In this document: positions 36,796 to 44,640 of the stretch, one piece after another
Numbering within the stretch: the stretch's first letter is position 1
Layout of the letters: every line of letters starts with the position of its first letter
Assembly: GCF_040358255.1 (NCBI RefSeq)
Contig: NZ_CP132938.1
Span: 4,712,001 to 4,776,000, forward strand
Reading direction: 5' to 3'
Origin: Tunturibacter gelidoferens
Lineage (GTDB): Bacteria; Acidobacteriota; Terriglobia; Terriglobales; Acidobacteriaceae
DNA length: 64,000 nucleotides
Made by a program: the position numbers and the translations under genes
Notes under the pieces: model-generated
The model's database searches: none
Told to the model about the DNA's origin: nothing
The model's input: only the letters and a program-made list of their open reading frames with translations

Positions 36796-37362
36796 ATGCG
36801 TCAACACGAGGTTCGCACGCAGCTTGGCCGGGTGCCAGTTCAGATGTTTGCGGCCAACGATCGCATGAACCAGATGCTGATCGAACATCTTGATCCTGCG
36901 GCGTGGAGAGCCAAGCCGCCGGCCAAACCGCCGGATAAGGCTCGCACCATTGCAGCGATCTTCACGCACGTGCATAACGTCCGCTGCAAGTGGGTCAGGC
37001 TTACGGCTCCGCATCTGAAGGTTCCACTACAACTGAACCGCGCGCACTGCACGCCGCAGCAGGCTCGTGAGGGATTGGCCGAGAGCGCCGCTCGCTGCGA
37101 GGAGATGCTGGCTGAAGCGCTGGGTGGTGAGGGCGGCCGCATCGAGAAGTTTCGCCGGGACGGGTGGGCTCCGGAGTGGCCGGCTGGCGTGGAGATGCTT
37201 TGCTACATGCTTGCTCACGAAGCTCACCATCGTGGTCAGGTGTGCATGCTCGCGCATCAGATGGGATTTGCGTTGCCGTATGAGGCGTCGGACGGGATCT
37301 GGAACTGGGAGAAGCTTTGGAGAGAGTGCGGGTGGCCTCGCGGTCCCGGCTACGGTTCTTAG
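36796..37362 (+). CDS. DinB-family four-helix protein
   Basis: About 188 residues from ATG 36796, two bases after the DUF418 stop. The hallmark is MLAHEAHHRGQVCMLAHQ, which supplies metal-ligand histidines in the last helix of DinB proteins; another candidate histidine is in HVHNVRCKWV near residue 60. Such proteins are metal-binding thiol-transferase-like enzymes induced by stress in some species. Substrate unknown. Confidence 0.85.
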   Translation: MRQHEVRTQLGRVPVQMFAANDRMNQMLIEHLDPAAWRAKPPAKPPDKARTIAAIFTHVHNVRCKWVRLTAPHLKVPLQLNRAHCTPQQAREGLAESAARCEEMLAEALGGEGGRIEKFRRDGWAPEWPAGVEMLCYMLAHEAHHRGQVCMLAHQMGFALPYEASDGIWNWEKLWRECGWPRGPGYGS

Positions 37363-37363
37363 A

Positions 37364-37819
37364 TCATGTGGTTGCCTGCAGTAGTTTTTTTGGGTTGTAG
37401 ACGTAAGTCAGGAACGCGTATCCCCACGGAACTGCGACGATGGGGAGTATGACCCACAGAAACGCGGAGGTGGTGCCTTCGGCTGATGAACCCGCCAACG
37501 TGCCCTTCGACCAGAGTGGGTACGCCACTACGATGAGCCACATGACTTTGTAGAAGACCTCGAGCAGCACGATCGGCAGCATCTTGAGAGGGCGAATGAT
37601 TCCCAGGCCAGCCAGGGTGGCGAAGGCTGTCCAGAGGCACCAGGCGACGGCATCCATCGGCTCCCACGGTCCCTGATGAGTGAGGATGTGGGTCCAGGTT
37701 TGTTTGCCCAGCACGAAGAACATCAGGATGTAGAGCAGGCGCAGGAGATAGATGTTGATGAGGCGGACGCCATCGTATTTTGCGGAGGGTTGAAAGATGT
37801 ACCTGGGGCTAAAGGTCAT
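37364..37819 (-). CDS. Conserved membrane protein of unknown function
   Basis: A 151-residue protein with four hydrophobic segments (about 24-42, 58-80, 84-104, 118-138) and a positively biased interior. I do not recognise it. It ends one base from the DinB stop, convergent. Confidence 0.65.
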   Translation of the reverse strand: MTFSPRYIFQPSAKYDGVRLINIYLLRLLYILMFFVLGKQTWTHILTHQGPWEPMDAVAWCLWTAFATLAGLGIIRPLKMLPIVLLEVFYKVMWLIVVAYPLWSKGTLAGSSAEGTTSAFLWVILPIVAVPWGYAFLTYVYNPKKLLQATT

Positions 37820-37984
37820 GGAAGTATCCTCGACTCGCAGTGCACTGCGCTTCCCGGTAGCACGTGCACACTAGACCAAACTCGGCTTGGGTGGCAGGTC
37901 TCTATAGATAACACACTGCAAGGTTGATACAAAGTACCACTTGGACTGCGGCTGTCTCGACTGAGGAGGTGGACCCAAAGCGCG

Positions 37985-38085
37985 GAGAGCGGGATGACCT
38001 TCGATCAGCTTGAACCGTCCGCAAATGCGCTGTGAACCATCACGATGTTCTTGACTGATGCAGGAGCCAGAGCATCCTTCCCTGA
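37985..38085 (-). pseudogene. Remnant of an alpha/beta hydrolase gene
   Basis: On the minus strand one frame reads APASVKNIVMVHSAFADGSS, a stop (TGA at 38007-38005), then SKVIP. This is the start of the common hydrolase pattern KNIVLVHGAFADGSSWSKVIP: the tryptophan codon TGG has become TGA, and the following frame is lost. No start codon or catalytic core remains. About 360 bp around it otherwise holds nothing I can identify. Confidence 0.55.
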
Positions 38086-38181
38086 TTGTCATCTCTCAGT
38101 GGCTTGTGATGCGGGACATTACGGTGTGGCGTCGCTGTTCTACATCGCTCGACGAATTGGTTGCGCCGGTTTGACGTGTCG

Positions 38182-38832
38182 TCATTTCACCTGGACATCA
38201 AAAAGGGTTATTAGCAGGGCAGCTTGGTCTGAGCTGATGGTGAGACCGCTCATGGTGGCTGGTGTCCCCCGAAGGCCGTCGAGCCGGCAGCCGCGAATAT
38301 CCGCACCAATGAGCTTCACGTGTGACAGGTCCGCGCGGCTGAGGTCGCAGTCGCGAAAGATGGTGCCGGACAGATCGGCGCTGTAGAAGTCTGCATCGGT
38401 CAGGTTGCAGTTCTCGAAGACGCAGTGTTGAAGGCGCGCCATTCGCAGGAGAGCGAAGTCCAGCTTGCACTCTTTGAAGAGGACGCTCTTCAGTTGGGCA
38501 TCGGTGAAGATAGCGCCGGTAAGTCTCGTTGAGATGAACTCCACGCGCTCGATGGAGCTTGCCTTCAGGTCACCGTTCGCCAGGTCGGAGCTTTCGATGC
38601 GGGAGTCGTGCAAGTGCAGCCCGTGTGCTTTTGGATCAGCCAGCGAGACGGAGTTTAGAAGACAGCGATCGATTCTCGCGGGTTGTCCGCGCGGACTTAG
38701 AAGCGGAGGCAAAGCCATGTCTGACCCTGTGGCGTCGCTTACCTGCCCAGATTCGAACTGCTCGGTAAAAGTCTCCGTGAGTAGATCAAACTCTATCTGC
38801 GGGGCGATGCGGCCCTTGGTCTTCGTCGCCAT
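38182..38832 (-). CDS. Pentapeptide-repeat protein
   Basis: A 216-residue protein whose residues about 70-190 carry pentapeptide repeats of the A(D/N)LXX type (for example SDLANGDLKA, CNLTDADFYSADLSG, CDLSRADLSHVKLIGADIRG), which fold into a right-handed beta-helix. The N- and C-termini are not repeated. Role is unknown; such proteins can act as scaffolds or DNA mimics. It ends before the haloperoxidase gene on the same strand. Confidence 0.88.
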   Translation of the reverse strand: MATKTKGRIAPQIEFDLLTETFTEQFESGQVSDATGSDMALPPLLSPRGQPARIDRCLLNSVSLADPKAHGLHLHDSRIESSDLANGDLKASSIERVEFISTRLTGAIFTDAQLKSVLFKECKLDFALLRMARLQHCVFENCNLTDADFYSADLSGTIFRDCDLSRADLSHVKLIGADIRGCRLDGLRGTPATMSGLTISSDQAALLITLFDVQVK

Positions 38833-38847
38833 GCTTCCAGAATATCC

Positions 38848-40251
38848 TCACTGATTGGAGATGGTGGCGATGGACCCGTCCAGCTTGGTGAGATGCACCG
38901 TTAGTTTTTCGTTGTAGACGCGAATCTTGTCCTGCAGGAAGCTGATGGCGAAGGCCTCTCCGAGGCGGAGCGAATCGTCGCTGTCGCTGCGCCAGTGGAT
39001 GCCTGCGTGAATGCCGTGGCCGAAGGTGATGTTGTGCGCGAGTTTGTTGAGCTCGCCGTTGATGGTGAGACTACCTGCGTCAGGGCCTGTGTAGGGGTTG
39101 AGCGAAAGACCGTCTGGTGCAGGCACCTGTGGGTTGGGGACGACGAAGTTTCCATCGTAGAAGAACTTGAGAACGGTGATACAAGCCCCGGCGACAGTGC
39201 CGTGACCGGTGGGGTAGGCGGGGTGAGCGGGCGATCCCTCAGGAAAGGCTTGCGAGAGAAACCAGCTGTTGTTAGCTTCATAGCTGGCTTTCAGCGCCTG
39301 CGAGTTGAGGAAGTTATTGTTCAGTCTGGCCTGAAGGCTGCCCAACTGGTTCGTCCTGGTGAGGTAGGCGATGCCGCCGCTGGACTCAGGCCGTGGACGC
39401 AGGTGAACGAACCACTTTTGATACCAGACCGTGTCGAGAACGCGGGCTGCAACTTCGCCGATGGTTGCAGAGATGTCGGGGCCACCTAGTGTGTCGAATC
39501 CATTTTGAGTGCGGGAGGTTGCGTAGGGATTGCCTGGATTGAGGGGTACGCCGAGGGTGTTCATGACGAGAAACGCGACGAAGTATGCCTGAAAGAGCAC
39601 GTCGACGTGGGTCCACGCGGCGAGTCCACGGCCGTTTTGCAGGAAGCGAACGTTGGGGTCCGCTTGATTGGTGAGGCCTGTATTGATCCCGTTCTGGACT
39701 TGCAGGAATGAATCGGGATCCAGCATGTAGTTGAGACCGGCCTGATAGGTTATGTACTGATTGGTGAGGGGCAAGGGTCCGAAGAAGCTGGGTGTGATGA
39801 TCAGCTGCGAGATATAGGGCCCAAGTGTCTCGCCTGGGTAGGAGCCGCGGAAGAGCAGATTGGGTGTGACCTGACCGGAATGCGTTCGCGGCCCGGCGTA
39901 GCTGGGCATGCTGGTCAGCTCGGCGCAGGCCGCGGCGGCTACGGGGCTGGTTTGGTAATCGGTGAAGGCTGTGTCGCGCAGCAGCGAGCACCAGTAGAGC
40001 TCGGTGAGCTCGGTACCCCAGGCGGGGCTGGAGAAGGCTGGCGGCGCTGGAACGATGACTTCGGTCTCCTGGTTGTGAGGAGAGGGTGAACTGCCGAATT
40101 GATGCGAGTCGGTTCCTTCGAGCGTGAAGGCTAACCCACCCTGTGGCCCATTCAGGGTGCGGGTTCCTCCGATGATGATGTTCTCGAAGTCCGATGGTTT
40201 GCCGCTGGCCAGAGCGGTCGTGAAGGTTCGATAAGCGGCGGGGTTTACCAA
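38848..40251 (-). CDS. Vanadium-dependent haloperoxidase-like enzyme lacking its own start region
   Basis: The body from 40251 (a TTG) is 467 residues, and the same frame stays open with family-like sequence (TASGFGIPSNPRVQASFAI, TNGDQQRYSDGS) back to about 40449, but no ATG, GTG or Tat signal precedes it before a stop near 40482. The vanadate-site sequences are intact: WYQKWFVHLRPRPE (Lys and Arg), AYPTGHGTVAGAC (SGH-like), and GIHWRSD (catalytic His, Arg). It would be a halide oxidase or phosphatase if secreted. The missing N-terminus is found in the opposite orientation next door. Confidence 0.7.
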   Translation of the reverse strand: MVNPAAYRTFTTALASGKPSDFENIIIGGTRTLNGPQGGLAFTLEGTDSHQFGSSPSPHNQETEVIVPAPPAFSSPAWGTELTELYWCSLLRDTAFTDYQTSPVAAAACAELTSMPSYAGPRTHSGQVTPNLLFRGSYPGETLGPYISQLIITPSFFGPLPLTNQYITYQAGLNYMLDPDSFLQVQNGINTGLTNQADPNVRFLQNGRGLAAWTHVDVLFQAYFVAFLVMNTLGVPLNPGNPYATSRTQNGFDTLGGPDISATIGEVAARVLDTVWYQKWFVHLRPRPESSGGIAYLTRTNQLGSLQARLNNNFLNSQALKASYEANNSWFLSQAFPEGSPAHPAYPTGHGTVAGACITVLKFFYDGNFVVPNPQVPAPDGLSLNPYTGPDAGSLTINGELNKLAHNITFGHGIHAGIHWRSDSDDSLRLGEAFAISFLQDKIRVYNEKLTVHLTKLDGSIATISNQ

Positions 40252-40449
40252 GCCGATCGAATCCTGAAGGACGACTTTGGTGTAGGTGGCCGAACCGTCG
40301 GAATAACGCTGCTGATCTCCGTTAGTTTGATGGGAAGGAATTGGAACAAGAGCCTGAGCGATCGCCGCGTTGAGACGGATCGCAAACGATGCCTGGACTC
40401 GCGGATTGCTTGGTATGCCGAAGCCGCTCGCGGTAGTCTGAACCGTCGC

Positions 40450-40575
40450 ATGCTTGACATAACTAGTATCCCGCCTTCCTTACAGGATCTCGTGTCCTCG
40501 CATGCCAACCCTCAACCCAACCTCAACCAACATAACCGCCGCAAGTTCCTGAGTCAGATCGGGGGAACGTTGTAG
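40450..40575 (+). pseudogene. Inverted Tat-signal fragment, apparent 5' end of the haloperoxidase
   Basis: On the plus strand an ATG at 40450 opens 41 codons ending NRRKFLSQIGGTL and a stop. RRKFL is a twin-arginine signal and the sequence matches the starts of this haloperoxidase family. If 40450-40572 is flipped, its last codon joins directly, in frame, to GCG at 40449-40447 of the haloperoxidase frame, giving one 574-codon gene. The hydrophobic part of the signal is missing, so the flip alone does not restore a working signal. Confidence 0.5.
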
Positions 40576-40700
40576 CACCGGCCTGGGCAAGGCACAATCG
40601 AAAAGTCAGAGTTGCACCAAAAAATGGCGCTTCGCAGTCAGGACAGCCGGGCTGAATTAATGTTGTGAGCTACGGGGCGAGCCCTCTTTGAAGCCTCTGA

Positions 40701-40888
40701 TTACGGATGTTCGGCGGCGGCTTTCAAGTTGGCGAGCCCCTTGTCGAAGTCGGGGCCGATCACTTTGTCCATTGAGGTAAAGACGCTCATCAGCTTGCCG
40801 GGGAAGAAGTTCATCGGGCCGTTCATGATCCAGTTGACGCGGGTGTCGGAGCCTTGCGGTTCGAGCACGAAGCTTGTTTTTCGCTTAC
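40701..40888 (-). pseudogene. C-terminal fragment of a second SRPBCC protein
   Basis: A minus-strand frame reads SFVLEPQGSDTRVNWIMNGP and later MDKVIGPDFDKGLANLKAAAEHP before a stop at 40703-40701. This is the last 60 residues of a polyketide-cyclase/SRPBCC protein. Its beginning is absent: homology stops at about 40888, immediately next to the end of the AHSA1 gene, so a deletion probably fused the two regions. Confidence 0.55.
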
Positions 40889-40912
40889 GTTTGGTTCCGC
40901 ACAGCAGGCACG

Positions 40913-41377
40913 CTAGATCATTGCTTCGAGGCGCACGTAGCTTGCTTCCATACCGTGTTCCATGCCTGTCGCCAGCATCGTTGCTCGCGTTTTCTCATCG
41001 GGTAGCGTCATCCGGATCGTCATCAAGGTTCCTTCGCCGTCCTGATCGAAGGTGGTTTCAACGTGGTTGTCGGGCGTGGGATCCGGCAGGTGCATCCGTT
41101 CGACGTGCACGATTCTGTTGAAAGGGTTCAGCTCAAGGTACTCACCCGTTATGTGGAATCCGGCGCCTTTGCCGTTGGTCCACTCGTAGCGGAACTTCCC
41201 TCCGGGCTTCGCGTCGTTGATGCAGACAGGCATGCTCCAGCCTTCAGGGCCGAGCAGCCACTTTTGTAACAACTTCGGATCGGTGTGCGCGCGATACAGC
41301 GCTTCCGGCGGCGCATCAAAGCGCCTCGTCACAATCACATGGGTATCGCCTTCCGTCTTCAACGTCATCTTGCTCAT
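40913..41377 (-). CDS. SRPBCC (AHSA1-like) protein
   Basis: A 154-residue helix-grip protein: TRRFDAPPEALYRAHTDPKLLQKWL at the start and GEGTLMTIRMTLPDEKTRATML near the end are typical of Aha1-type SRPBCC proteins. It overlaps the ArsR gene by four bases (ATGA), so the two are one operon. In this arrangement the SRPBCC protein is usually the enzyme or binding protein controlled by its ArsR partner; ligand unknown. Confidence 0.88.
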   Translation of the reverse strand: MSKMTLKTEGDTHVIVTRRFDAPPEALYRAHTDPKLLQKWLLGPEGWSMPVCINDAKPGGKFRYEWTNGKGAGFHITGEYLELNPFNRIVHVERMHLPDPTPDNHVETTFDQDGEGTLMTIRMTLPDEKTRATMLATGMEHGMEASYVRLEAMI

Positions 41378-41712
41378 CGCATCTCTCCTCTCTTCTTTGT
41401 GTCGATAGCGGCCAGAACTCCGTCCAGCCGGTCGTAGTTCTTCTCAAGCGCAGTGCGGAGCATTCCAAGCCATTGATTCATCGCTTCGATTCCCTCCTTC
41501 GCGAGACGACGGGGGCGCTTTGTGCCTTCCACCCGTCGCATGATCAGCCCAGCATCTTCGAGCACTTTGAGATGTTGCGAGATCGCCGGTTGCGACATCT
41601 CGAAGGGACGTGCCAGTTCATTGACCGTGGCCTCGCCCAGTGAGAGCCGCGCCAGAATCGCCCGGCGAGTTGGGTCAGCTAAGGCCGAGAACTTTGTATC
41701 GAGGCCATTCAT
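41374..41712 (-). CDS. ArsR-family winged-helix repressor
   Basis: A 112-residue transcription factor: DPTRRAILARLSLGEATVNELARPFEMSQPAISQHLKVLEDAGL contains the wHTH with recognition helix SQPAISQHL. No cysteine metal site (CxC) is present, as expected for the non-metal members that accompany SRPBCC genes. It likely represses its own operon through the palindrome just upstream. Confidence 0.93.
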   Translation of the reverse strand: MNGLDTKFSALADPTRRAILARLSLGEATVNELARPFEMSQPAISQHLKVLEDAGLIMRRVEGTKRPRRLAKEGIEAMNQWLGMLRTALEKNYDRLDGVLAAIDTKKRGEMR

Positions 41713-41717
41713 AGGTT

Positions 41718-41742
41718 ATAACTTATATAAGTAATAACTTAT
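41718..41742 (-). promoter_or_regulatory. Probable ArsR operator
   Basis: A perfect 12-bp palindrome ACTTATATAAGT (41721-41732) is embedded between two direct copies of ATAACTTAT (41718-41726 and 41734-41742), 9 to 30 bases ahead of the ArsR start codon. The position fits autorepression. Confidence 0.55.
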
Positions 41743-41811
41743 TGTCAAGATTTAAGTTTCATCATATGCGGAGAGTCGCTATTGACGGGTGGCTCCGGCT
41801 GTTTTCCATCT

Positions 41812-41896
41812 CACCCTTTGGAGAGTGCGCGAAGGATGGGGCACCCGATTATTTCTGGTTGGTTGAAATTGATGAAACCAAGGTGGGCTACCCGCC
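41812..41896. repeat. Dispersed repeat, copy 1 (GGATGGGGCACCC family)
   Basis: A non-coding element beginning CACCCTT, containing GTGCGCGAAGGATGGGGCA, CTGGTTGGTTGAAAT and AGGTGGGC(T)ACCCG. Copy 2 at 44515-44598 has the same blocks in the same order and orientation with about 80 percent identity by eye. I recognise it as a common intergenic repeat of this order; this is memory, not a search. Confidence 0.65.
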
Positions 41897-42008
41897 GTCG
41901 AAGTTTTGTGCGATGACCTGCTCGCGCGAATGGACGTAGGCAGCGAAGAGGTCAATGCACCACCAGCAAGCTTTTTCCAACATCGTGATTGAAAGCTCAG
42001 GAGGATTT

Positions 42009-43040
42009 ATGGCAACAGCCGTCGCAGCAGCAACGATGAAGGTGGCTCAAGTTTCCGCGGCCGGCGGAGATTTTCAGATTGTGGAGCGTGCGATTCCTAA
42101 CCCAGATGCGGGGCATATAAGGATCAAGGTGCTGGCCTGCGGGGTTTGTCACAGTGATGCGATGACGAAAGAAGGTGCGTGGCCGGGCATTCAGTATCCG
42201 CGGGCTCCTGGACATGAGGTGGCAGGCGTTGTCGATGAGGTGGGTGCGGGGGTATCGACGTGGAAGAAGGGGCAGCGCGTCGGTGTCGGCTGGCATGGCG
42301 GCCATGACAACACGTGTCTCTCGTGTCGGCGTGGTGATTTTGGCAACTGCTCGAATATGAAGATTCCGGGCATCAGCTATGACGGCGGGTACCAGGAATA
42401 CATGGTGGCTCCGGTGGAGGCATTGGTGGCGATACCGGATAGTCTGGGTGACGTTGAAGCGGCGCCTCTGCTCTGCGCGGGGATTACTACCTTCAACGCG
42501 CTGCGGCACAGCGGTGCACTGCCCAGCGACCTCGTTGCGGTTCAGGGTATCGGCGGTCTCGGTCACCTTGGAATTCAGTTTGCGAGCAAGTTTGGTTATA
42601 ACGTTGCGGCGATCGGGCGTGGACCGGAGAACGCGGCGCTTGCGAAGAAGCTTGGAGCGAATGTGTACATCGACAGCAAAGCGACGAACGCTGCCGAGGA
42701 GTTACAAAAGCTGGGCGGGGCAAAGGTGATTTTGGCGACCGCTCCGAGTTCGAAGGCGATGTCTGAGTTGATCAATGGGCTGGGGCCGAACGGCAAGCTT
42801 ATGGTGATTGGTGCCAGCTTCGATCCCATTGAGGTCACGCCAATACAGCTCATCACTTCTAGCCGAACGATTCAAGGGTGGGCTTCGGGAACACCAACTG
42901 ACTCCGAGGACACACTGCGCTTCGCAGAGCTGACCGGCGTGCGGCCCATGATTGAAACCTATCCGCTCGAAAAAGCAGCCGAGGCTTATGCGCGGATGAT
43001 GAGCGGGAATGCACAGTTTCGCGTGGTGCTGACGATGTAG
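42009..43040 (+). CDS. Zinc-dependent alcohol dehydrogenase (MDR family)
   Basis: About 343 residues from ATG 42009 (AGGAGG just upstream). The catalytic-zinc region GVCHSDAM and GHEVAGVVDEVG are present; the structural-zinc lobe is reduced to a partial cysteine set (CLSCRRGDFGNC). The Rossmann motif is GIGGLGHLGIQFA. The end, HFRVVLTM-like QFRVVLTM, is typical. It oxidises alcohols or reduces aldehydes with NAD(P)(H). Confidence 0.9.
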   Translation: MATAVAAATMKVAQVSAAGGDFQIVERAIPNPDAGHIRIKVLACGVCHSDAMTKEGAWPGIQYPRAPGHEVAGVVDEVGAGVSTWKKGQRVGVGWHGGHDNTCLSCRRGDFGNCSNMKIPGISYDGGYQEYMVAPVEALVAIPDSLGDVEAAPLLCAGITTFNALRHSGALPSDLVAVQGIGGLGHLGIQFASKFGYNVAAIGRGPENAALAKKLGANVYIDSKATNAAEELQKLGGAKVILATAPSSKAMSELINGLGPNGKLMVIGASFDPIEVTPIQLITSSRTIQGWASGTPTDSEDTLRFAELTGVRPMIETYPLEKAAEAYARMMSGNAQFRVVLTM

Positions 43041-43130
43041 CGTGACCGAGGTCCTGAATTCATCCATTGACCTGGGGCTAATTCGGGTCTAGTGTAGACG
43101 TGCCTTAGAAGAGGAATTTAGGAGGCGTTC

Positions 43131-43709
43131 ATGCGTCGATCCCTTTGTCTTCTGTGTCTACTGGTTTTTGGCGGTTGCCTTGCGGCTCAGGCCGATCCAC
43201 TCGTGACGGTTACCGTCAACTTCGTCTACCACAACTTCGACGACACGGGCTCGACCACCTTCTCGTTCGATCCGGACAAGGTGTTCTTCTATCTCCACCC
43301 AAATTACCAGTTTGATTTCTTGTATCCCCTCATTCAGTCGCCCGAGTTTCCGAGCCCGAGCAGCTTCGACACAGTGGATTTCTTTGGCGGCTCGCTCGCG
43401 TTCACCAACTTTGGACCAAATTTCATCTACGATTTCGAAATCGACGGTACCTGCCAGGACATCCCCCCTCTCGCCGGCACCGGGGCGGTGCCTACCTTCG
43501 TAACAACGACCTGCTATGGCAGCGGCGTTCGCGATTCTATCGGCGGGGACCAGACAGAGGTGGTCGAGGAGATTACCTCGCTGGACTTCGTGGTGACGGG
43601 AGGTGAGGCCACACCTGAGCCGTCGAGCCTTGTCCTGCTCGGTACCGGCCTTGCCGGTCTCTTGCAAATTGGCTTCAGCCGCATGCGAGCTGCCCGAAGA
43701 GCTTCCTAG
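43131..43709 (+). CDS. PEP-CTERM sorting-domain secreted protein
   Basis: A 192-residue protein with a signal peptide (core LCLLCLLVFGGCLAAQA) and a C-terminal exosortase signal TPEPSSLVLLGTGLAGLLQ followed by basic SRMRAARR. AGGAGG precedes the ATG. The middle has acidic beta-strand repeats (FNDTGSTTF-like) and paired cysteines near 120-140. Role unknown. Confidence 0.85.
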   Translation: MRRSLCLLCLLVFGGCLAAQADPLVTVTVNFVYHNFDDTGSTTFSFDPDKVFFYLHPNYQFDFLYPLIQSPEFPSPSSFDTVDFFGGSLAFTNFGPNFIYDFEIDGTCQDIPPLAGTGAVPTFVTTTCYGSGVRDSIGGDQTEVVEEITSLDFVVTGGEATPEPSSLVLLGTGLAGLLQIGFSRMRAARRAS

Positions 43710-43835
43710 CGGCGGCGGCTCCTGCGGACTGCGCTAACACTCGCGACGGGTGGCTCGCGAATCATTTGGTACGCGCAGTTGGGCTGGCGAACATTTAGGT
43801 TCTGCCAAGAGAAGCGGTGCTAGCGTGGCGTGAAT

Positions 43836-43889
43836 GCCCACATCTCACAATCGAGATGTAGAGCCAGATATAGACTTTCGGATGTGGGC
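43836..43889 (+). promoter_or_regulatory. Alternative hairpins ahead of the DUF417 gene
   Basis: GCCCACATC (43836-43844) can pair with GATGTGGGC (43881-43889), while CATCTC (43841-43846), which shares bases with the first arm, can instead pair with GAGATG (43853-43858). The two structures are mutually exclusive, as in an attenuator. Function is inferred. Confidence 0.3.
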
Positions 43890-43928
43890 CATCTGCTCGA
43901 TGATGACCTTACATGAAGGAGTCTTTTT

Positions 43929-44465
43929 ATGGCTGAAACCACACCGACTGGGGCATGGGGCGATAACGAAATACAGGCGAAGAGTGTGCTAACAAAGATC
44001 GCGGCGTTTGTCGCAAATCGAAATATCCCTTTCCTTATTTGCAGTGTTGGAATGATCGTGATGTTGCTGTGGGCGGGGAAATTCAAGATGACAGCACCGG
44101 GAGCGGAGGGCATCATCCCGCTTGTCAGTAACAGCCCATTGACCAGTTGGCAGTTCAAGCACTTTGGACCATATATTTTGGGGGATATGATCGGGCTCAC
44201 GGAATGGACTGCAGCAATCCTGCTGATCATTGGCTACTTCAAACCTAAAGCAGGCATTCTGGGCGGGATCATTCTAGTCGGCATGTTCTTCACCACGAGC
44301 ACCATGTTGATCACGACGCCGGATGACACCGTCGTGGTTCACGGCATCCATTACATGAACAACACCGGCCTGTTTCTCTTCAAGGACATTATCGCTTTCG
44401 GAGTTGCGTTCTATCTGATCAGCTACTATGGCCGAAAAGCGATCATGGCTGAGAATCAGAGATGA
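43929..44465 (+). CDS. DUF417 (YkgB-like) membrane protein
   Basis: A 178-residue protein with four membrane helices and the family motifs VLWAGKFKMTAPGAEGI near residue 50 (here MLLWAGKFKMTAPGAEGI) and GGIILVGMFFTTSTMLITTPD. An AGGAG site precedes the ATG. Family members are stress-induced inner-membrane proteins of unknown function. Confidence 0.85.
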   Translation: MAETTPTGAWGDNEIQAKSVLTKIAAFVANRNIPFLICSVGMIVMLLWAGKFKMTAPGAEGIIPLVSNSPLTSWQFKHFGPYILGDMIGLTEWTAAILLIIGYFKPKAGILGGIILVGMFFTTSTMLITTPDDTVVVHGIHYMNNTGLFLFKDIIAFGVAFYLISYYGRKAIMAENQR

Positions 44466-44514
44466 TGGTCTGCGGGGGAATTCATGACCTTGGAGTCCTG
44501 AATGACTGCACTCC

Positions 44515-44598
44515 CACCCTTCGCAAGTGCGCGAAGGATGGGGCACCCGATCATTTGTGGTTGGTTGAAATGAGTAAGAGCAAGGGTGGGCCACCCGG
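44515..44598. repeat. Dispersed repeat, copy 2 (GGATGGGGCACCC family)
   Basis: Shares the blocks CACCCTT, GTGCGCGAAGGATGGGGCA, TTGGTTGGTTGAAAT and GGGTGGGCCACCCGG with copy 1. Non-coding; it lies next to the orphan gene that follows. Confidence 0.65.
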
Positions 44599-44640
44599 CC
44601 ACCCACCAGAATTCTAGACCGAAACAGCGCTCTCGTCCGG

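Follow-up and report, generated by a model that had tools for sequence, protein, structure and literature searches.

A haloperoxidase gene of Tunturibacter gelidoferens with its Tat-type start inverted beside the gene body

Near-reciprocal, non-homologous inversions have been described in starving E. coli, and those whose junctions gained or lost a few tens of bp have been explained by template switching (PMC3161906). Short-range template-switch mutations, described in great apes and yeast, involve the copying of a nearby template in inverted form (PMC7954356, PMC8604942). The presence of a short stretch of DNA in two orientations within one species is also a feature of invertons, or phase-variable DNA inversions (PMC11892184). 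On the protein side, the body of the gene described below is homologous to vanadium-dependent bromoperoxidases and a haloperoxidase whose structures have been solved (PDB 1qhb, 7qvw and 1qi9), and among bacterial relatives many have a Tat-type start. In the T. gelidoferens genome studied here (G000), this same start is detached from the body. A limited literature search returned no title on the locus, and absence from print is not claimed.

The window, which is the whole 64,000-base stretch of DNA that was analyzed, corresponds to G000:C2:4712001-4776000 of a 5,581,845-base genome in two contigs (99.97% complete). The haloperoxidase body lies on the minus strand at 38848–40449, comprises 534 codons including the stop, and lacks both a start and a signal peptide. 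It is collinear with the genome G065 over its whole length and with the genome G031 up to 40408. The minus-strand frame is open from a stop at 40480–40482, which closes it upstream and lies inside the inverted segment, down to the stop at 38848. The first in-frame ATG, GTG or TTG is the TTG at 40251, codon 67 from the junction, in keeping with the report of the first-pass annotation that the frame has no start or signal before a stop near 40482. The protein encoded by 38848–40251 matches 10 PDB sequences at E ≤ 0.1, among them 1qhb, 7qvw and 1qi9 with phmmer E values of 1.1e-57, 3.8e-57 and 7.1e-56, and the best of these matches covers query residues 157–461, the C-terminal catalytic region. 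In the alignment with 1qhb, the PTGH of the G000 protein falls on GSGH, a stretch that we take to belong to the active site. Scans of the protein against Pfam and NCBIfam returned no families. By homology to the solved structures, 38848–40449 is identified as encoding the body of a vanadium-dependent haloperoxidase, and it is the single match in a search of the G000 genome. A Tat export signature, in which a twin-arginine motif is followed by a hydrophobic core at the N-terminus, is not present in the window in this form: the plus strand carries the motif, and a search for the core found nothing.

Adjacent to the body, plus-strand positions 40450–40572 encode a 41-residue peptide that ends in NRRKFLSQIGGTL and is followed by TAG. 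A Pfam scan of this peptide gave no families. When 62 genomes of the genus were searched at the DNA level, window 40444–40568 proved identical at 125 of 125 bases to the opposite strand of G065:C2:1063614-1063738. G065 is flagged as the same species as G000 and is the strain M8UP30 of Edaphobacter lichenicola, which is now named Tunturiibacter lichenicola (PMC11924767). All 41 residues of the peptide are found in G065 within an open frame of 498 codons that also contains the enzyme, and the order in this frame is MLDITS...NRRKFLSQIGGTL, then the hydrophobic stretch AAGALASPVFASAQS (the Tat core), and then the haloperoxidase body. Because the G065 frame reads Tat motif, core and body in succession, the alignment of the two genomes identifies the plus-strand piece as the beginning of the haloperoxidase gene, reversed in G000 when compared with G065. 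The inverted segment (40444–40568, plus strand) carries the original start codon and the first ~39 codons, including the twin-arginine motif NRRKFL. The segment itself is found in only two of the 62 genomes, G000 and G065; the third DNA match, in G034, has 80% identity over 44 bases, all of which lie outside the segment. At the protein level, a search at E ≤ 1 yields matches in 24 of the 62 genomes, of which only those in G000 and G065 are full length; the remaining 22 are weak (E 0.06 to 0.99), and the G031 haloperoxidase start is 38% identical over 39 residues (E 0.17). The first-pass annotation had read a 41-residue plus-strand peptide from 40450 onward as the Tat-type start of the haloperoxidase, and the homology search that it proposed does recover a haloperoxidase N-terminus, that of G065. 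Its further suggestion of a flip of exactly 40450–40572 stands in its in-frame arithmetic (534 codons with the stop, plus 41) and fails at its right end. The segment stops at ~40568, and GTTG at 40569–40572 belongs to the downstream flank, yet gives the same residues, T and L.

Outside the segment, the two strains retain the same order. Window 16913–40449 is collinear with G065 1040001–1063540, and window 40567–40872 with G065 1063736–1064041, after which 456 G065 bases are absent and collinearity resumes to 44600. The original upstream (leader) region of the haloperoxidase is still in place at 40567–40697 on the minus strand (98% identity to G065:C2:1063736-1063866 in plus orientation). In G065, 73 bases (1063541–1063613) that are in neither window piece separate the segment from the body. 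A search of the G000 genome with these bases gave no match; as a positive control, the query was found in G065, and in G031, where the N-terminus has diverged, there was no match. Counted between the anchors at window 40449/40567 and G065 1063540/1063736, the net loss in G000 is 78 bases, or 26 codons. The lost stretch holds the Tat hydrophobic core and what comes after, encoded by the 73 G065 bases. The earlier deduction that a deletion must have accompanied the flip is thus borne out. Because 78 is divisible by three, a hypothetical back-flip joins in frame.

The comparison with close relatives that had been called for places the normal order in the same-species strain G065. The same-strand order, Tat motif and then body, is also found in G031, in which the gene is intact (594 aa) and the body shares 92% DNA identity. 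To extend this comparison, 80 related loci were fetched and six were set aside as partial or at a contig edge, leaving 74. Eleven named loci were read by eye, and 10 of them, including L048 (which is G065), have the Tat motif followed by the body on the same strand; the exception, L052, has no Tat motif. By a simple pattern, 52 of the 74 loci with a complete upstream frame hold an in-frame Tat-like motif, a count that includes some off-target first matches (for example in L047, L060 and L076). When the region ahead of the body was scanned on the other strand in the 74 loci, no convincing flipped start emerged: a loose motif matched in seven, which were judged by eye to be chance occurrences unlike the start of this gene, and the flipped start of the window itself was detected as a control. 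Since the same-strand order is seen in G065, G031 and the related loci, we regard the flipped order as the derived state, which arose in the G000 lineage.

At the left junction (40444–40449), the sequence CGTCGC agrees at six of six positions with the outer end of the segment and at five of six with the gene-body side when G065 is used as a proxy for the ancestor, with TCGC common to both. By strict parsing, the homology here is 1 bp; it is 4–6 bp if position 40445 was already G before the event. At the right junction (40567–40568), there is a 2-bp microhomology, AC, between the inner end of the segment and the downstream flank. The chance of matching bases at one random junction is roughly 0.016 for at least 4 bp and 0.16 for at least 2 bp. 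In either arrangement, inverted repeats at the segment ends measure at most 6 bp and are imperfect on one side, in line with the remark of the first-pass annotation that no clear ones were seen, and a search for repeats across the junction region of the window returned nothing at the ends. A GCATGC pair is located no more than 4 bp from the outer breakpoint. Folded as single strands and compared with shuffled sequences, the ancestral stretch gave unremarkable z values of 1.13 and −0.02 for the two strands.

The comparison shows both gene orders, the loss, the positions of the junctions (to within microhomology) and, from the relatives, the polarity. Very probably, one non-programmed rearrangement in the lineage of G000 inverted ~124 bp and dropped the adjoining 78 bp net. 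To regard the inversion and the loss as one event is the simplest reading. The combination of a local inversion, short microhomology and the loss of tens of bp is that of a non-homologous microinversion with junctional deletion, whether by template switch or by end joining. As the molecular route, we favor a double template switch in one replication fork. The nascent strand would leave its template on the gene-body side, use a few bases (TCGC or CGTCGC) to anneal, at the far end of the segment, to the opposite strand, be extended by ~124 bases copied back from that strand, and then return to the original template at AC. These steps would leave an inverted stretch and, at one of its junctions, a loss of tens of bases. 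In its shape, the G000 product fits the near-reciprocal inversions of starving E. coli (PMC3161906). The E. coli inversions arose under laboratory selection, whereas the G000 event belongs to a natural lineage, is situated inside one gene and has no unusual secondary structure found with it; the unremarkable fold scores give no support for stalling at a strong secondary structure, which the E. coli model includes. The G000 locus likewise resembles the inverted copying of nearby templates described for great apes and yeast (PMC7954356, PMC8604942), although no pair of long inverted-repeat arms was found at the ends of the G000 segment.

The same inversion and deletion could instead have been produced by two double-strand breaks that were repaired through Ku-type end joining once one end had been resected, a route that we regard as a credible but less probable competitor. 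Ku (PF02735) is present in all three genomes tested (G000, G065 and G031), a junction homology of 1–2 bp fits this kind of repair, and no outer-boundary base is used twice under strict parsing. However, end joining needs two breaks ~124 bp apart and the re-ligation of a short free fragment. In addition, if 40445 was already G, the left junction hints at annealing, because at least 4 bp of homology would arise there by chance with a probability of only 0.016.

A second lesion is present nearby. At 40868–40872, 456 bases that are whole in G065, and across which G031 aligns unbroken at 87.5% identity, are missing, a deletion that is unique to G000 among these three genomes. The affected neighbor of the haloperoxidase is a Polyketide_cyc2 (PF10604) gene that encodes 207 aa in G065 and is reduced in G000 to a 55-aa remnant at 40701–40868. 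The deletion lies ~300 bp further on than the inversion, and the two fall within ~430 bases of each other. In 22 syntenic G000/G065 blocks (418,046 alignment columns), which were built from direct-strand matches of at least 250 bases and >88% identity on the syntenic diagonal, there are 23 breaks or gaps of at least 20 bases within or between blocks, the two lesions among them; against this number, their clustering is only mildly unusual. It is conceivable, though we think it unlikely, that one serial template-switch accident of replication caused the 456-bp deletion as well as the flip with its 78-bp loss, and so broke two neighboring genes at once.

An assembly or library artefact in G000, in the form of a chimeric inverted fragment, might be considered for an order taken from the assembly. 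This explanation is very improbable: the genome is assembled in two contigs at 99.97% completeness, an artefact would also have to lose 78 bp, and no other in-place inversion was detected in the ~418 kb compared, the haloperoxidase segment being the only one found in those columns. A scan for further small inverted patches inside the aligned blocks gave no candidates; it counted only clusters of mismatches with an exact reverse-complement match no more than ~200 bases away, and would miss imperfect patches. Eight minus-strand matches of >88% identity connect G000 and G065; one of these is the haloperoxidase segment, and the other seven span 35–66 bases. Five of the seven come from G000:C2:4661815, a place that is collinear with G065 over 700 bases. 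This place, which is outside the window, holds a dispersed repeat of ~100–200 bases, with several copies at 73–83% identity in both orientations in the compared G065 stretch.

The segment covers the beginning of a gene for an exported protein and occurs in two orientations within one species, as would a programmed or phase-variable element that toggles the signal peptide, and the first-pass annotation had raised an invertible element with imperfect ends. This interpretation is highly improbable and was rejected on the lack of repeats and the one-way loss. An inverton has inverted repeats at both ends and inverts reversibly with its content conserved; in comparison with such elements (PMC11892184), the G000 segment shows no end repeats beyond 6 bp, a one-way net loss of 78 bases and a probably inactivated gene. 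As part of the signal peptide was not found in G000, re-inversion would not restore the G065 gene order. Moreover, the flipped order was seen in no relative examined, and the G065 haloperoxidase carries a frameshift of its own.

The weak likeness of the peptide to the G031 haloperoxidase start could be read as that of a remnant of another Tat-exported gene, unrelated to haloperoxidase, a reading of negligible probability that is ruled out by the identity of its DNA to the G065 haloperoxidase start, which is in frame with the body there. A conserved separate plus-strand gene, which the first-pass annotation had named as the finding that would overturn its view, is also ruled out, as the segment DNA is in two of 62 genomes and the G065 copy is inverted.

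Because it has no ATG, GTG or TTG before codon 67, no export signal and a stop in front, and is the only copy found, the G000 haloperoxidase is most plausibly a pseudogene. A comparison of the body in G000 and G065 gives 30 synonymous and eight nonsynonymous single-base differences, a count that omits one column with an extra G065 base and the codons gapped in G000 or G065. When these differences are polarized with G031 as outgroup, 15 synonymous and four nonsynonymous changes fall on the G000 side, 11 and three fall on the G065 side, and five are unassigned. These counts suggest that constraint on the haloperoxidase persisted until recently and that the lesion is young. In G065, the body is split by a one-base frameshift (L044:1938-3789), either a separate lesion or a sequencing error, and both genomes of the species, as sequenced, therefore carry a broken haloperoxidase. 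Within the minus-strand body, ~547 bases (window 39509–40055) have no G000/G065 difference and the flanking parts differ; this stretch may reflect recent DNA exchange.

Additional observations concern the surroundings of the gene. Relative to G031:C1:1449187-1456117, the gene order of window 36800–44600 is shuffled. In G031, the haloperoxidase sits beyond the gene of window 43131–43709, the product of which is presumably PEP-CTERM-like, as judged by motif, and is followed by a second copy of the last ~96 bases of that gene (90.6% identical to window 43617–43712). The G031 layout looks as if the gene had moved. An intergenic repeat at window 41790–41900 and 44512–44597 matches the genome at nine places, its own among them, over lengths of 24 to 111 bases.

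The locus offers a clean before-and-after view of how a gene was broken in a soil bacterium from nature; a strain of the same species has retained the old order, so that each junction can be read. It also calls for caution: a gene start in reverse should not be taken for a switch, and automatic annotation of this locus would yield an enzyme without an export signal. The G000 lesion is most likely ordinary gene decay, unusually legible, rather than a genetic switch.
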